Shown one piece after another: positions 9,016 to 32,495 of a stretch of DNA of 34,138 nt. The number at the start of each line of letters is the position of its first letter. The stretch's first letter is position 1. A model generated the notes under the pieces. The model saw nothing but the letters and a program-made list of their open reading frames with translations. It did not search any database and was not told where the DNA came from. Origin of the DNA: Terriglobia bacterium (lineage in GTDB: Bacteria; Acidobacteriota; Terriglobia; Terriglobales; Acidobacteriaceae); the NCBI GenBank assembly GCA_020073105.1, contig JAIQFW010000019.1:1-34138 (forward strand), given 5' to 3'. The position numbers were made by a program, and so were the translations under genes.

Positions 9016-9080
9016 GAGAAGTGTAGGACTATTCTAATTCATTCGAGTGTGGGTCGTTGCCGACCGGTAAGATTATGCGT

Positions 9081-9122
9081 AGGGGCTGTTGCCAACGACC
9101 TACGACGAACGACCGACGACGG
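9081..9122 (-). repeat. Degenerate heptamer array after nadA
   Basis: Read on the minus strand, six consecutive 7-base units start one nucleotide after the nadA stop. The first four follow the consensus (c/t/a)(g/c)GTCGT (for example CGGTCGT and AGGTCGT); the fifth and sixth decay. An isolated inverted unit, CAACGAC, follows near 9052-9062. The last two units and the 10 bases after them (9071-9091) also occur, with 17 of 21 matches, next to the related array at 19521. Confidence 0.65.
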
Positions 9123-12594: not shown

Positions 12595-12688
12595 GTTAGC
12601 ACTTGGCAATTAGCACTTGGTCCGTCGCGCGATTCCCCGATTGCAGCGAGAACCCATGCTGGCCAAATGCCAATTGCTAAATGCTTCT
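12595..12688. repeat. Inverted pair of heptamer arrays upstream of moaA
   Basis: Four forward units (12595-12622, consensus nTTrGCA, for example GTTAGCA, ATTAGCA) are followed after 38 bases by about four units in inverted orientation (12661-12688, for example TGCCAAT, TGCTAAA, complement of the same consensus). The two halves could pair into a long hairpin. The moaA start lies at the left edge. The rest of the gap to 13000 holds only the nonamer array at 12842. Confidence 0.6.
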
Positions 12689-18326: not shown

Positions 18327-18361
18327 CAGTTGTCAGTTGCCGGTTCTCAGTTCTCAGTTAT
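18327..18361 (-). repeat. Five-unit heptamer array between etfB and etfA
   Basis: Five consecutive 7-base units with plus-strand consensus C(a/g)GTT(c/g)T (CAGTTGT, CAGTTCT and variants). Read in the direction of transcription the first unit supplies the TAA stop codon of etfB itself. The array ends 21 bases before the etfA start. Confidence 0.75.
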
Positions 18362-21345: not shown

Positions 21346-21520
21346 GGCACGAACAATGTAGCAGAGCGCTGCCACTTGCGGCCGGATCCCAGGTTGACTT
21401 TCGCCTGGTTTTCGCGTCTAAAGCTGCTTGCACGCCTCCTTGAACGTTGGTGTTCGGTACAGCATGCCAGCCGTTGTTCACTTGGCCGCCGCGGGAGGCC
21501 GTGTTAGGGTACAGGAGATC

Positions 21521-22651
21521 ATGAAAAGCGCTTTCATGTCAGGCAGATGGGCGCATTCGAAGGAGGTCCTGGCCAAGGGCAATATGCTCGCCGCCACCTT
21601 GCTTCTGGCCATGCTGGGGGTCGCCTGCAGTGGCAGTCCAGCCAAAGGTGAATCGCCGGGCGCGCCCAGCATTCCAGTGAAGATCGAAGTAGCTCGGGAG
21701 ATCGCGCTGAATGACACCACAGAATATGTGGCCACGCTACGGTCCCGGGATTCTGCCGTCCTCATGCCGCAAGTGGAGGGTGAGATTGTTGACATCCGGG
21801 TGCATTCCGGGGACCACGTTTCCGCAGGCGCGGTCCTAATGCAGATCGACCCTGCTAAACAGCAAGCCACGGTGACCAGCCAGGAAAGTGCCAAAGCGGC
21901 CCAGTTAGCCAATCTGAAGTGGGCCCAACAGCAATACGAGCGGACGAGCAGTCTCTACGCGGCGGGCGTGGTCAGCAAGCAGGATCTGGACCAGACCAAG
22001 GCAGCGATGGACGCCGCCCAGGCCCAGTTGCAGGCACTGGACGCCCAGGTCCGTGAGCAACAAGTCCAACTTCACTACCACAACGTCGTCGCTCCGCGGA
22101 ACGGGATCGTCGGCGACATTCCAGTCCGGGTGGGAGATCGGGTGACCAACACCACCGCGCTCACCACGGTGGACAAACCGGGCAGCCTGGAGGCTTACAT
22201 CTACATTCCGGTAGAGCGCTCCCCACAGCTCAAGCTCGATACGCCCGTCCAGATCGTCGATGGCGCGGGCAATGTGCTGGCCGACAGCCGCATCAGTTTC
22301 ATTTCACCGCAGGTCGATAACACAACTCAAACCGTCCTGATCAAGGCGCGAATAGCCAATAACGAAGACAAGCTGCGCAACCTGCAGTTCATTCGCGCCC
22401 GGGTCATCTGGGGGATGCACCAGGGGCCGGTAGTGCCAGTGCTGGCAGTGTCGCGCATCGGCGGACAATACTTTGCCTTTGTGGCGGAAGATCAGAACGG
22501 AAAACTAGTTGCCCACCAGAAGCCGCTACGGGTCGGCGAAATGGTCGGCAACGACTATGTGGTACTGGAGGGAATCAAGCCCGGTGATAAAGTGATCGTC
22601 TCCGGGACCCAGTTCCTGGTGGATGGCGCAGCGGTGACGCCACAAGGGTAG
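21521..22651 (+). CDS. RND efflux periplasmic adaptor, lipoprotein type
   Basis: Membrane-fusion protein bridging the RND pump (next gene) and an outer-membrane channel. Lipobox L-G-V-A-C (Cys36) anchors it in the inner membrane. A beta-barrel and split lipoyl domain (M-P-Q-V-E-G-E-I-V-D-I-R-V-H-S-G-D-H-V) encloses an alpha-helical hairpin (~105-170, rich in Ala/Gln). The second lipoyl half is V-V-A-P-R-N-G-I-V-G-D, and the membrane-proximal domain ends G-D-K-V-I-V-S-G. The start is the ATG at 21521 with AGGAGATC directly before it; the frame runs further back from a TTG, but that part is unsupported. It is followed by the pump gene after a ~100-base heptamer array. Confidence 0.93.
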   Translation: MKSAFMSGRWAHSKEVLAKGNMLAATLLLAMLGVACSGSPAKGESPGAPSIPVKIEVAREIALNDTTEYVATLRSRDSAVLMPQVEGEIVDIRVHSGDHVSAGAVLMQIDPAKQQATVTSQESAKAAQLANLKWAQQQYERTSSLYAAGVVSKQDLDQTKAAMDAAQAQLQALDAQVREQQVQLHYHNVVAPRNGIVGDIPVRVGDRVTNTTALTTVDKPGSLEAYIYIPVERSPQLKLDTPVQIVDGAGNVLADSRISFISPQVDNTTQTVLIKARIANNEDKLRNLQFIRARVIWGMHQGPVVPVLAVSRIGGQYFAFVAEDQNGKLVAHQKPLRVGEMVGNDYVVLEGIKPGDKVIVSGTQFLVDGAAVTPQG

Positions 22652-22749
22652 TTTCAGGTGTTTGGTATCGGGTCACAGGTCTCCGGCATCAGCTTCAAGG
22701 TTTCAGGTCAGAGCTTGACTCCTGAGACCTGGGACCTGACTCCTGATTT
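22652..22749 (+). repeat. Fourteen-unit inverted heptamer array between adaptor and pump genes
   Basis: Immediately after the adaptor stop the gap divides into 7-base units. Eight forward units (22652-22707) follow the consensus TnTCAGG, with two perfect TTTCAGG at both ends. A short transition follows, then five inverted units (22714-22748; for example CCTGAGA, CCTGACT, CCTGATT). The gap ends CCC-ATG, so the array leaves no room for a Shine-Dalgarno sequence. The two halves are complementary and could fold on the mRNA. Confidence 0.8.
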
Positions 22750-22752
22750 CCC

Positions 22753-25700
22753 ATGTTCGTCGACTTCTTCATACGCCGTCCGGTTTTCGCCACCGTCTGC
22801 GCCCTGCTGATCATCCTGGCGGGCGCGGTCGTGATTCCCACCCTGCCAGTGGCGCAGTTCCCCGATCTGGCGCCGCCACAGGTCTCGGTGAACAGCGCTT
22901 ACATTGGCGCCAGCGCGCAAACCGTGGAATCGGCTGTCACCATACCTCTAGAACAGCAGATCAATGGCGCCGAGGGAATGAAGTACCTCACCTCGAGCAG
23001 CGGCAATGATGGCACCAGCTCCATTACCGCGACCTTCGACCTGACTCGTGACGCCGACCTGGCAGCTGTGGACATCCAGAACCGTGTCAACACGGCACAG
23101 GGGCGCCTGCCCGCGGCAGTCAAGGCGACGGGCGTTACCGTGGCTAAGTCATCGCAGAACTTTGTCTTCGGGGCTGCGGTTTATTCTCCCGACGGCCGCT
23201 ACACGCCGCTGTTCATGAGCAACTATCTGGACGTCTACGTCCGCGACACGCTCAAGCGCGTCCCGGGCGTGGCGGATGTTTTTGTCTTTGGCGAACGCAA
23301 GTACTCGATGCGCCTGTGGCTCGATCCCGTGCGCATGGCCAGTCGCGGTTTGACCGCGACGGATGCGGTGAACGCCCTCCAGGAGCAGAACGTCGAGGTC
23401 GCCGCCGGCCAGGTCGGCCAGCCGCCGATTAGGACGGGGCAACAGTTTCAGATCAGCGTACGGGCCATCGGACGGCTGAGCGAACCGGCACAGTTCGAAA
23501 ACATCATCGTGAAGACCAATGCCGACGGCACCCTGGTGCGGCTCAAGGACGTCGGGCGGGCCGAACTGGGCGCCGAGGACTACGGCTCCGACCTGATGTA
23601 CAACGGACACGAATCGGTGGGAATCGGTCTCACGCAGCTCTCCACCGCCAACGCTCTGGAAGTGGACCGGCGGGCGCTGGCGGAACTGGCGCGTTTGTCC
23701 AAGCGCTTCCCTCCCGGAATGGTGTACGAGAACGCCTTCGACACCACGGACGCGGTCGGTGAGTCGATCAAGGACGTGCTGAGCACGCTGCTCGAAGCCA
23801 TCGTGCTGGTAATCCTGGTGATTTTCATCTTCCTGGAAGACTGGCGCAGCACGATCATCCCGTCGGTTACGATCCCGGTTTCGCTGATTGGGACCTTTGC
23901 CTTCGTCAAGCTGCTGGGTTTTTCTGTCAATACCTTGACCCTGTTTGGGATTACCCTGGCCACCGGCCTGGTGGTGGACGACGCCATCGTGGTGATCGAA
24001 AACATCGAACGCCACATCCAGGAAGGCGAACATAGCCCCAGCAAAGCCGCGGCCGCTGCCATGCGGGAAGTTACTGGCGCGGTCATCGCCACCTCCTTGG
24101 TGTTGGTCGCGGTGTTCGTCCCGGTCGCATTCTTTCCGGGGACCACGGGAATTCTGTTCCGCCAGTTCGCGCTGACCATCGCCTTTTCGATCTCGATTTC
24201 CGCCTTCAATGCTCTGACCCTCAGCCCCGCGCTCTCCGCACTGCTGCTGGGGCGTACGCATGGCGAGAAGATCTGGCTCTTCCGCGAAGTGGACAAGGTG
24301 GTTGCAGCAGTCACCCATGGATATCAGGCTTCGCTGCGCGCGTTTTTGCGATATCGGCTGGTGGCGGTTGTGCTTTTTTTGGCGGGGTTGGCACTCACTT
24401 ACGTCATCTTTCAGCGCGTGCCCAAGGCTTTCGTGCCCAACGAAGATCAGGGCTGGTTCATTGTTGCGGTGCAATCGCCTCCCGGAGCGTCCGCGCAATA
24501 CACCAAAGCGATCGAGGAACAGGTCTACGATGTCATGCGCAAGGCCCCGGAGATTGAGAATATCTTCGCCATCGTTGGCTTCAGCTTTTCGGGAAGCGCA
24601 CCCAACCGCGGAATCATTTTCGCCGGCTTAAAAGGCTACTCCCAGCGCAGGGGCGACGAGCATTCCGCCCAGGCTGTCGTAGATCGGCTGCGAGGGCCGA
24701 TGTTCGGAATCACTGGCGCCATCGTGCTTCCGTTCTTGCCGCCGGCGGTGAACGGGCTCGGCAACTTCGGAGGTTTTCAGTTTGAGGTCCAGGACCAAGG
24801 TGGACACACTCTGGAGGAACTGGCCAAGGTTACGCAAGAGATGACGCGCCAGGGCAGCCTGCGCAAGGACCTCACCGGCCTGTTCAGCGACTTTACCGCC
24901 AACGATCCGCAGTTTCTGGTGACCATTGATCGCGAAAAGGCCAAGAGTCTCCATGTTCCTTTGCAGCAGGTGACCGACACTCTGGGCGTCTACATGGGCT
25001 CCGCCTATGTAAACGACTTTGACTTCAACAACCGCTCCTACCGCGTCTATGTCCAGGCCGATAAGCAGTTCCGCTCCCAGGCGAAAGACATAAGGCAGTA
25101 CTACGTACGCTCCGACAGCGGCGCGATGATTCCACTGGACAACCTCGTCGCCATTTCGCAAACCTCATCGCCGCAAGTCATCAGTCATTACAATCTCTTT
25201 CGCTCGGCCGAAGTTGATGGAGCGGTGGCGCCAGGATTCAGTTCCGGTCAGGGCATCGCCGCCCTGGAAGAGCTCAGCAAGAAAGTGCTGCCCCAGGGGT
25301 TCAGCTACGAGTGGACCGGGATCTCGCTGGAAGAATTGGCGTCCGGGCGCACCACGGTCATTCTGTTCGGATTGGGAGTATTGGTCGTGTACCTGACGCT
25401 CTCCGCGCAATACGAAAGCTTTGTGTTGCCGTTTATCGTGCTGCTCGCAGTTCCCATGGCCATGTTGGGCGCGTTACTGGCCCAATCCTTGAGGGGTTTA
25501 CAGAACGACGTCTATTGCCAAATCGGATTGGTGATGCTGGTGGGACTCGCCAGCAAGAACGCCATTCTTATTGTTGAATTTGCCGAACAGCTGCGTGAGC
25601 GCGGTCTGCCGCTGGTGGAAGCCACCGTGGAGGCCGCGAGAATCCGCCTGCGCCCCATCCTGATGACTTCGTTCGCATTCATCCTGGGAGTTGTGCCCCT

Positions 25701-25863
25701 GATGGTTGCGCACGGCGCCGGCCAGGAAGGCCGCCATTCCGTGGGCACCACGGTGTTTGGCGGAATGATTATGTCGACCTTGCTGAACCTGTTCTTCATC
25801 CCCGTGCTGTACCTGATCATTGAAGGCTGGCGCGAGGCCCGCGGGGCAAAAGTGGGCCGGTGA
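22753..25863 (+). CDS. RND multidrug efflux pump, AcrB/MexB (HAE1) family
   Basis: A 1036-residue, twelve-helix inner-membrane proton antiporter that expels hydrophobic drugs in a tripartite complex. The N-terminus F-F-I-R-R-P-V-F-A and V-A-Q-F-P-D-L-A-P-P are family hallmarks. The proton-relay residues are present: Asp409-Asp410 in G-L-V-V-D-D-A-I-V-V-I-E-N (E. coli AcrB Asp407/408) and Lys935 in G-L-A-S-K-N-A-I-L-I-V-E-F (Lys940). Two large porter domains are intact, so it should be active. No outer-membrane channel (TolC/OprM) gene and no regulator lie next to it. No Shine-Dalgarno sequence precedes the ATG. Confidence 0.96.
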   Translation: MFVDFFIRRPVFATVCALLIILAGAVVIPTLPVAQFPDLAPPQVSVNSAYIGASAQTVESAVTIPLEQQINGAEGMKYLTSSSGNDGTSSITATFDLTRDADLAAVDIQNRVNTAQGRLPAAVKATGVTVAKSSQNFVFGAAVYSPDGRYTPLFMSNYLDVYVRDTLKRVPGVADVFVFGERKYSMRLWLDPVRMASRGLTATDAVNALQEQNVEVAAGQVGQPPIRTGQQFQISVRAIGRLSEPAQFENIIVKTNADGTLVRLKDVGRAELGAEDYGSDLMYNGHESVGIGLTQLSTANALEVDRRALAELARLSKRFPPGMVYENAFDTTDAVGESIKDVLSTLLEAIVLVILVIFIFLEDWRSTIIPSVTIPVSLIGTFAFVKLLGFSVNTLTLFGITLATGLVVDDAIVVIENIERHIQEGEHSPSKAAAAAMREVTGAVIATSLVLVAVFVPVAFFPGTTGILFRQFALTIAFSISISAFNALTLSPALSALLLGRTHGEKIWLFREVDKVVAAVTHGYQASLRAFLRYRLVAVVLFLAGLALTYVIFQRVPKAFVPNEDQGWFIVAVQSPPGASAQYTKAIEEQVYDVMRKAPEIENIFAIVGFSFSGSAPNRGIIFAGLKGYSQRRGDEHSAQAVVDRLRGPMFGITGAIVLPFLPPAVNGLGNFGGFQFEVQDQGGHTLEELAKVTQEMTRQGSLRKDLTGLFSDFTANDPQFLVTIDREKAKSLHVPLQQVTDTLGVYMGSAYVNDFDFNNRSYRVYVQADKQFRSQAKDIRQYYVRSDSGAMIPLDNLVAISQTSSPQVISHYNLFRSAEVDGAVAPGFSSGQGIAALEELSKKVLPQGFSYEWTGISLEELASGRTTVILFGLGVLVVYLTLSAQYESFVLPFIVLLAVPMAMLGALLAQSLRGLQNDVYCQIGLVMLVGLASKNAILIVEFAEQLRERGLPLVEATVEAARIRLRPILMTSFAFILGVVPLMVAHGAGQEGRHSVGTTVFGGMIMSTLLNLFFIPVLYLIIEGWREARGAKVGR

Positions 25864-31068: not shown

Positions 31069-32427
31069 ATGTTTGAGAACCTCCAAGAGAAACTTCAGCG
31101 AACGTTCAAAAGCCTGCGCGGGCAGGCCGTCCTCAATGAAGAAAACATTCAGGAGGCGCTGCGCGAACTGCGCCTTGCCCTGCTGGAAGCCGATGTCAAT
31201 TTCAAAGTGGTCAAGCAGCTGATTGATCACATCCAGGCAAAGGCAGTAGGCCAGGAAGTCGCTACCGCGCTTTCTCCGGGGGAGCAGGTCATCAAGATCG
31301 TACGCGATGAGCTGATCGAAACCCTCGGTCGCGACACCGCGCGCCTGAAATTTGCCTCGCAGCCGCCCACCGTGGTGCTCATGGCAGGACTACAGGGCTC
31401 CGGCAAGACCACCACTTCCGGCAAGTTGGCCAACTGGCTGAAGAATGGCGGGCATCGACCGCTACTGGTCTCCGTCGATGTTTACCGTCCCGCTGCCCGA
31501 GAGCAACTCAAGGTAGTCGCGCAGGCCATCAAAGCCAACCTCTATGAGGGTGAAGTTGCGGAAGCCAACACCGCCACCGTCGAGCGCCTCGCCAAAGAAG
31601 CGCGGCGGGAGGCGATCAATACTGGATCCGACGTCCTGATCGTGGACACGGCGGGCCGCCTGCATATCGACGAGCAGCTCATGGAGGAGATGCAGTCGCT
31701 CAAGCGGCTGCTGAACCCGCAAGAAATCCTGTTCGTTGCCGACGCCATGACCGGCCAGGATGCAGTCAATTCCGCCGACGAGTTCCACAAGAAGTTATCC
31801 CTCACGGGCGTTGTGCTCACCAAGATGGACGGTGACGCCCGAGGTGGCGCAGCGCTCTCCATCCGCCAGGTCACGGGCCAACCCATCAAGTTCATCGGCG
31901 TGGGCGAAAAGTACGATGCCCTGGAACCCTTCCACCCGGATCGCATCGTGTCGCGCATTCTGGGTATGGGCGACATCCTCTCGCTGCTCGAGAAAGCCGA
32001 GCAGAACGTCGACAAGAAAAAGGCCCAGGAGATGGCCAGCCGGGCCCTCGCCGGCGACGGCTTCTCACTCGAGGACTTCCGCGATCAATTGCGCAGCGTA
32101 AGGAAAATGGGGTCGATCCAGAACCTGATGGGCATGCTGCCCAGCATCGGTCCGTTCGCTGGTCTGCAGAAGCACGCGGACAAGGTCGATGAGAAGCAGA
32201 TCAACCGTGTGGAGGCGATCATCAACTCAATGACCTCCCACGAACGCAATCACCATGAAGTGATCAACGGCAGCCGGCGCAAGCGCATCGCCCGCGGCTC
32301 CGGCACCAGCGTGCAGGAAGTCAACAACCTGCTTCGCCAGTATGCCCAGATGCGCAAAATGTTCAAGCAAATGGGCAAGGCCAGCTTCGGGCGCAAGCTG
32401 GCGGGCATGAAGCTGCCGGGAATGTAG
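31069..32427 (+). CDS. ffh: Signal recognition particle protein Ffh
   Basis: The GTPase of the signal recognition particle: binds 4.5S RNA and nascent signal peptides and delivers ribosomes to FtsY at the membrane. Helical N domain 1-~88, then the G domain with P-loop G-L-Q-G-S-G-K-T (107-114), D-T-A-G-R-L-H (G3), T-K-M-D-G-D-A-R-G-G (G4) and I-G-V-G-E-K-Y-D-A-L-E-P-F. The M domain (~325-452) is methionine-rich, with the RNA-binding stretch near S-R-R-K-R-I-A-R-G-S-G. Length 452 is normal. No Shine-Dalgarno sequence precedes the ATG. The TAG stop lies inside the first unit of the next heptamer array. Confidence 0.97.
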   Translation: MFENLQEKLQRTFKSLRGQAVLNEENIQEALRELRLALLEADVNFKVVKQLIDHIQAKAVGQEVATALSPGEQVIKIVRDELIETLGRDTARLKFASQPPTVVLMAGLQGSGKTTTSGKLANWLKNGGHRPLLVSVDVYRPAAREQLKVVAQAIKANLYEGEVAEANTATVERLAKEARREAINTGSDVLIVDTAGRLHIDEQLMEEMQSLKRLLNPQEILFVADAMTGQDAVNSADEFHKKLSLTGVVLTKMDGDARGGAALSIRQVTGQPIKFIGVGEKYDALEPFHPDRIVSRILGMGDILSLLEKAEQNVDKKKAQEMASRALAGDGFSLEDFRDQLRSVRKMGSIQNLMGMLPSIGPFAGLQKHADKVDEKQINRVEAIINSMTSHERNHHEVINGSRRKRIARGSGTSVQEVNNLLRQYAQMRKMFKQMGKASFGRKLAGMKLPGM

Positions 32428-32489
32428 CGAGTAGCTTGTAGCTAGTAGCTAGGGGCTCTTCTAGCTACTCGCTACCAGCTACTAGCTAC
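32424..32489 (+). repeat. Inverted heptamer array between ffh and the peroxiredoxin-like gene
   Basis: Five forward units (32424-32458, consensus GTAGCTA, two of them perfect) and four inverted units (32462-32489, consensus TAGCTAC, its exact complement) are separated by three bases. The first forward unit contains the ffh stop codon TAG. The last unit ends six bases before the next ATG. The two halves can form a near-continuous hairpin of about 28 bp with mismatches. No U-tract follows. Confidence 0.85.
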
Positions 32490-32495
32490 TCTTCT

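Follow-up and report, generated by a model that had tools for sequence, protein, structure and literature searches.

The spacer between a membrane-fusion gene and an RND pump gene is one member of a widespread class of intergenic heptamer arrays in Acidobacteriota

The mirror array between the two RND genes

The analyzed window (the whole stretch of 34,138 nucleotides) carries a membrane-fusion protein (MFP) gene of the HlyD_D23 family at 21428–22651 on the forward strand, the start codon of which is provisional, followed by an RND pump gene (ACR_tran, 22753–25863, forward strand) that begins with ATG. The gap between the two genes (22652–22752) is 101 bases long, and 22652–22749 holds fourteen 7-base registers. 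The lag-7 identity of the gap was 0.553, a value that none of 5000 dinucleotide shuffles reached (0.250 ± 0.046), and identity was also elevated at lags 14 and 21. Chance or low complexity was thereby ruled out as the source of the periodicity, and the head-to-tail 7-base units make the gap a heptameric tandem repeat of the STRR-like kind. As judged from sequence, periodicity, and core positions, the left half (22652–22714) begins one base past the upstream stop codon and comprises approximately eight to nine degenerate TNTCAGG-type units. The right half (22715–22749), delimited by sequence and periodicity, comprises approximately five units of CCTGANN type, the reverse complement of the left-half type, and ends 3 bases 5′ of the pump ATG. 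With the two halves mutually inverted, the length, the register count, and the midway switch of orientation given in the initial annotation were all borne out. Its pattern of eight TnTCAGG and five CCTGANN units held for the unit types but not for their cleanliness, as exact TCAGG occurs only twice (22654 and 22703) and exact CCTGA only three times (22721, 22735, and 22742), while the remaining left units match four to five of the six fixed TNTCAGG positions. Because exact cores are so few, the array is either old or loosely maintained.

The best inverted stem joins a 5′ arm at 22668–22691 to a 3′ arm at 22716–22739, both on the forward strand, and its strongest part, GGTCACAGGTCTC (22671–22683) with GAGACCTGGGACC (22724–22736), was equalled in none of 100 shuffles. 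The predicted RNA fold of 22640–22770 was also stronger than its shuffles, albeit moderately (z = −2.0, 7/200 as good), so that the fold-back of the mRNA suggested earlier is present in prediction. The spacer had no Rfam match and no promoter-like or terminator-like site, the stem followed by a T run of an intrinsic terminator being absent, and a known RNA family, a terminator, or a promoter was rejected on these grounds. Plasmid-borne copies of the spacer were not found either.

No such array in the window is longer than that in the gap, but the latter is not, as had also been claimed, the cleanest. A second mirror array of GTAGCTA/CTAGCTA type at 32424–32490, between the SRP54/ffh gene and an AhpC/TSA gene, has an equal or higher lag-7 identity (0.58) and arms that pair better, and its first unit includes the ffh stop codon. 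A third mirror array of the same class spans 12596–12684 (TTAGCACTTGG ... CCAATTGCTAA, also given as TTAGCACTTGGCAATTAGCACTTGG ... CCAAATGCCAATTGCTAA). Besides these, an array of CAGTTCT type in a single orientation was seen at 18327–18359, and a weak one of CCAACGA type at 9092–9121, for which an inverted copy may lie near 9053.

The array class in the host genome and the phylum

The host genome, a MAG of a soil acidobacterium, comprises 5.14 Mb in 308 contigs, its nearest relatives among public genomes are Acidobacteriota/Terriglobia MAGs, and the genome-wide figures rest on 0.9 Mb. This sample contained 37 tandem arrays at period 7 and between none and three at each other lag from 4 to 13, a contrast that was helped by the inclusion of stretches picked for carrying CCTGANN arrays, which likewise makes the arrays appear too dense and CTGA cores too frequent. 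Shuffled host sequence yielded zero arrays at every lag. In 0.54 Mb of contigs taken regardless of arrays, six further lag-7 arrays were found and 7 was still the main period, as it was in a second genome (G171). The units vary (CTGAAGC, CTAGCTA, CTGAGAA, CTGAATG, CCAAGTG, and others), and the arrays are dispersed over many, mostly intergenic sites between unrelated genes. A six-unit CYRRNNN pattern was matched in 134 of 297 sampled Acidobacteriota genomes, counting overlapping matches; the control in which this pattern was read backwards is not independent of content in array-rich genomes. The 8.4 Mb acidobacterial genome G106 gave more than 2,700 overlapping six-unit matches and 13 lag-7 arrays in 35 kb. 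No lag-7 arrays were present in the first 200 kb of G286, which the pattern search had led us to expect to be array-rich. Since the class recurs across many genomes, an assembly artefact was ruled out. The focal gap is thus one member of a genome-wide and phylum-wide class of intergenic 7-base arrays. Few bacterial repeats have been studied as little as heptamer arrays, which Acidobacteriota carry in large numbers.

The differing host units can be aligned on a common template, C-Y-R-R-N-N-N, with an EM score of 4.86 compared with 3.05 ± 0.09 for column-permuted arrays. The template fits 23 of the 24 distinct host units, against 36% of letter-permuted units, and the fit was 68% in G171 and 57% in G106. 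Within G171 arrays, drift is lower in the core columns (0.05–0.08) than in the spacer columns, where it reaches 0.27. Some factor favors the C-anchored core. In the enriched host sample, CTGA (128) and CTAG (45) make up most of the cores, and these 173 units would suit a core made of C plus a stop codon, which would place stops in every frame since 7 equals 1 modulo 3. This idea was not adopted because CTAA is rare (6) and arrays with CCGA, CCAA, and CCAG are common in another genome.

For 14 of the 47 arrays, an inverted partner is present no more than 180 bases away, compared with 5.7% when neighborhoods were swapped (p = 2.5e-6), whereas approximately 70% of arrays lack one. The host genome thus contains close-by inverted array pairs of the type known from Xanthomonas. 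In each of the seven strict mirror pairs, as in the focal gap, reverse units stand to the left of forward ones. Mirror arms enclose variable interiors of 3 to 142 bases. Large mirror elements in G058 share the polarity of the host, while that in G051 is opposite. Between the arms of one G058 element (L184), the order of unit variants is kept, which suggests that one arm was copied from the other in inverted orientation and that the two did not expand independently. The G058 loci L179–L188 also show two-tier mirrors in at least ten places, with outer CTGANAG units, inner GCTTNNN units, and a loop of approximately 80 bases.

The arrays are mostly located outside genes, although approximately 83–87% of the sequence is coding according to our home-made gene caller. 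Where neighboring genes are co-directional, the array begins at the upstream stop codon in 13 of 19 gaps of the host (8.1 expected, P = 0.0025) and in 15 of 47 gaps of G171 (9.5 expected, P = 0.03). Divergent gaps in G171 are poor in arrays.

Turnover, origin, and function of the arrays

Among 78 distinct orthologous MFP/pump gaps, 24 carry a stem at p ≤ 0.02, where approximately 1.6 would be expected. The mirror units differ from gap to gap: TTTCTAG/CTAGAAA (L018), TTTCAGG/CCTGAAG (L028), GGGCTTC/GAAGCCC (L217 and L237), TTAGCAC/CTAAGTG (L045), and GAAGTCA/TGACTTC (L036). At the same gap, L022 and L023 carry mirror arrays with an apparent period of 8 (CCGATGAC type); 27 lag-8 arrays were also noted in G171. 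A comparison within one genus (30 gaps) revealed mirrors built from three unit types, a mirror heptamer hairpin nested within another of a different unit (L302 and L319, whose right arms differ by one 7-base unit), direct-only arrays (L307 and L310), and gaps with no array at all (L305 and L239). In relatives further removed, the gap is mostly short and free of arrays. These differing, nested, direct, or absent arrays at one orthologous gap therefore indicate a fast turnover of the spacer, in which the mirror can be rebuilt with new sequence. The initial annotation would have been refuted by relatives that keep the gap while losing both the 7-base phase and the pairing; many have indeed lost both, while others keep a mirror hairpin of wholly different sequence. 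As the hairpin is kept with new sequence in these, it may have a generic role. The C-anchored template common to different units and the way in which the mirror forms anew, time and again, from other sequence are new and unexplained.

A role of the spacer in setting the ratio of MFP to pump, as suggested at the outset, was not borne out. Such a dedicated and conserved regulator would sit where the array sits, between the two cistrons, and could make use of the predicted stem. However, the array is not conserved at the orthologous gap, which varies even within a genus, and the same class occurs between many unrelated genes; together with the missing promoter- or terminator-like site and the lack of a transcribed-strand preference in stem mismatches and folding energies, this makes such a regulator extremely unlikely. 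The focal spacer is better seen as a recurring intergenic repeat type than as an operon switch; a ratio-switch annotation is not warranted, and there is little consequence for the operon itself. With regards to the class, the unit is free to vary while the period, the core, and the mirror layout recur, which allows a mutational mechanism and a selected hairpin to be set against each other.

With modest confidence, we favor a mutational origin, in which fast-turnover intergenic arrays arise from 7-base slippage and inverted copying and are retained in tolerant spacers. This reading is supported by the dominance of period 7, the shared template, the excess of inverted partners, the differing arrays at the orthologous gap, the single-unit difference between L302 and L319, the matching unit order in L184, and the placement of arrays outside genes and behind stop codons. 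Slippage would lengthen or shorten the arrays by 7 bases at a time, and intrastrand template switching would lay down an arm a second time in the opposite orientation, yielding a hairpin with arms matching in unit order. Spacers behind stop codons would tolerate the array, which would then be kept. Expression, if affected at all, would respond as it does to intercistronic hairpins in general, without a dedicated control of the pump. Perhaps the arrays act as a generic 3′ mRNA hairpin. In mutation-accumulation lines of Acidobacterium capsulatum, indels made up more than 26% of mutations, which is unusually high (PMC8717266); this is compatible with slippage but is not direct evidence for it. 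The account by slippage and inverted copying is nevertheless incomplete, since uniform slippage and mutation would lead to equal drift at all seven positions, while the G171 core drifts less than the spacer, and since an array of G171 is almost unchanged between two congeners although its flanks differ by approximately 20%.

The main rival to this mutational origin is a retained generic 3′ hairpin. Here, selection would act on the mirror arrays as RNA hairpins that lie behind stop codons and either protect the upstream cistron at its 3′ end or cause RNA polymerase to stall; at the focal site, the MFP transcript would be favored over that of the pump. REP and BIME elements, to which such hairpins would be similar, are likewise intergenic hairpins behind stop codons, also inside operons. 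REP units, however, are conserved palindromes of 20–40 bases tied to RAYT transposases, while the arms here consist of 7-base tandem units of varying sequence. The placement behind stop codons, the scarcity of arrays in divergent G171 gaps, and the re-creation of hairpins with new sequence in relatives all speak for selection, whereas the many arrays without an inverted partner and the many orthologous gaps without an array speak against it. Selection at the transcript level would further be expected to favor G·U over A·C mismatches on the coding strand. This was not seen: 39 G·U and 29 A·C mismatches represent no excess (p = 0.27), and the folding energy did not differ between the strands. 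Selection on the RNA strand thus left no signal in either measure; an RNA role may exist but gains no support from them. Altogether, we regard selected hairpins as rather unlikely.

A DNA- or RNA-binding protein, or a nicking or topoisomerase-type enzyme, that recognizes the C-anchored core at 7-base intervals and either produces the arrays or keeps them intact would account for the shared template and for the lower drift of the G171 core columns. No candidate protein emerged, though, and the limited template fit in G171 and G106 and the opposite mirror polarity in G051 speak against it; we therefore consider this improbable. The mirror arms around variable interiors and the filled and empty orthologous sites could also recall the ends of a MITE-like miniature mobile element that inserts into spacers. 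Since the interiors form no shared family, the units differ between neighbors of the same genus, and direct-only arrays exist, such an element is very improbable.

Comparison with published heptamer repeats

A published description of heptamer arrays in Acidobacteriota was not found among the open-access papers searched. An earlier survey that included four acidobacterial genera reported that perfect heptamer repeats are represented there at a normal median level (PMC4060949), a result compatible with the patchy distribution of arrays found here. The Xanthomonas and TAACTGA repeats and three further published heptamers fit C-Y-R-R-N-N-N as well, which is suggestive rather than conclusive because 33% of random heptamers fit. 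It is conceivable, but on balance unlikely, that the heptamers of Acidobacteriota, Xanthomonas, Beggiatoaceae, and cyanobacteria form one class on a C-anchored C-Y-R-R core that is actively made or kept by an enzyme or a replication process common to all of them. If so, the architecture, including the mirror hairpins, would persist while the unit sequence is replaced.

Direct TAACTGA repeats occur in Beggiatoaceae, cyanobacteria, and Bacteroidetes, with strains differing in 7-base steps (PMC4679880). They resemble the present arrays in being intergenic and built of 7-base units, and TAACTGA, read as CTGATAA, fits the loose template. The Beggiatoaceae repeats are mostly direct, forward, and located just 5′ of start codons, whereas mirrors are frequent here and the bias is toward stop codons; the focal gap does not contain the TAACTGA unit and has only the loose CYRRNNN template in common with these repeats.

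The GGGAATC and GGGGA(T/C)T heptamers of Xanthomonas and Nostoc are intergenic, each Xanthomonas genome holding approximately 70 pairs in inverted (convergent) orientation (PMC4692102). The degenerate 7-base units, the intergenic position near the 5′ neighbor gene, and the inverted pairs are shared with the arrays described here. In Xanthomonas and Nostoc, one G-rich unit dominates a genome and G-quadruplexes were proposed, whereas a single genome here carries many units that are not G-rich, and the focal TNTCAGG/CCTGANN units have no GGG tract repeated in register. Unlike in Xanthomonas and Nostoc, the unit at one orthologous site changes here between related species.
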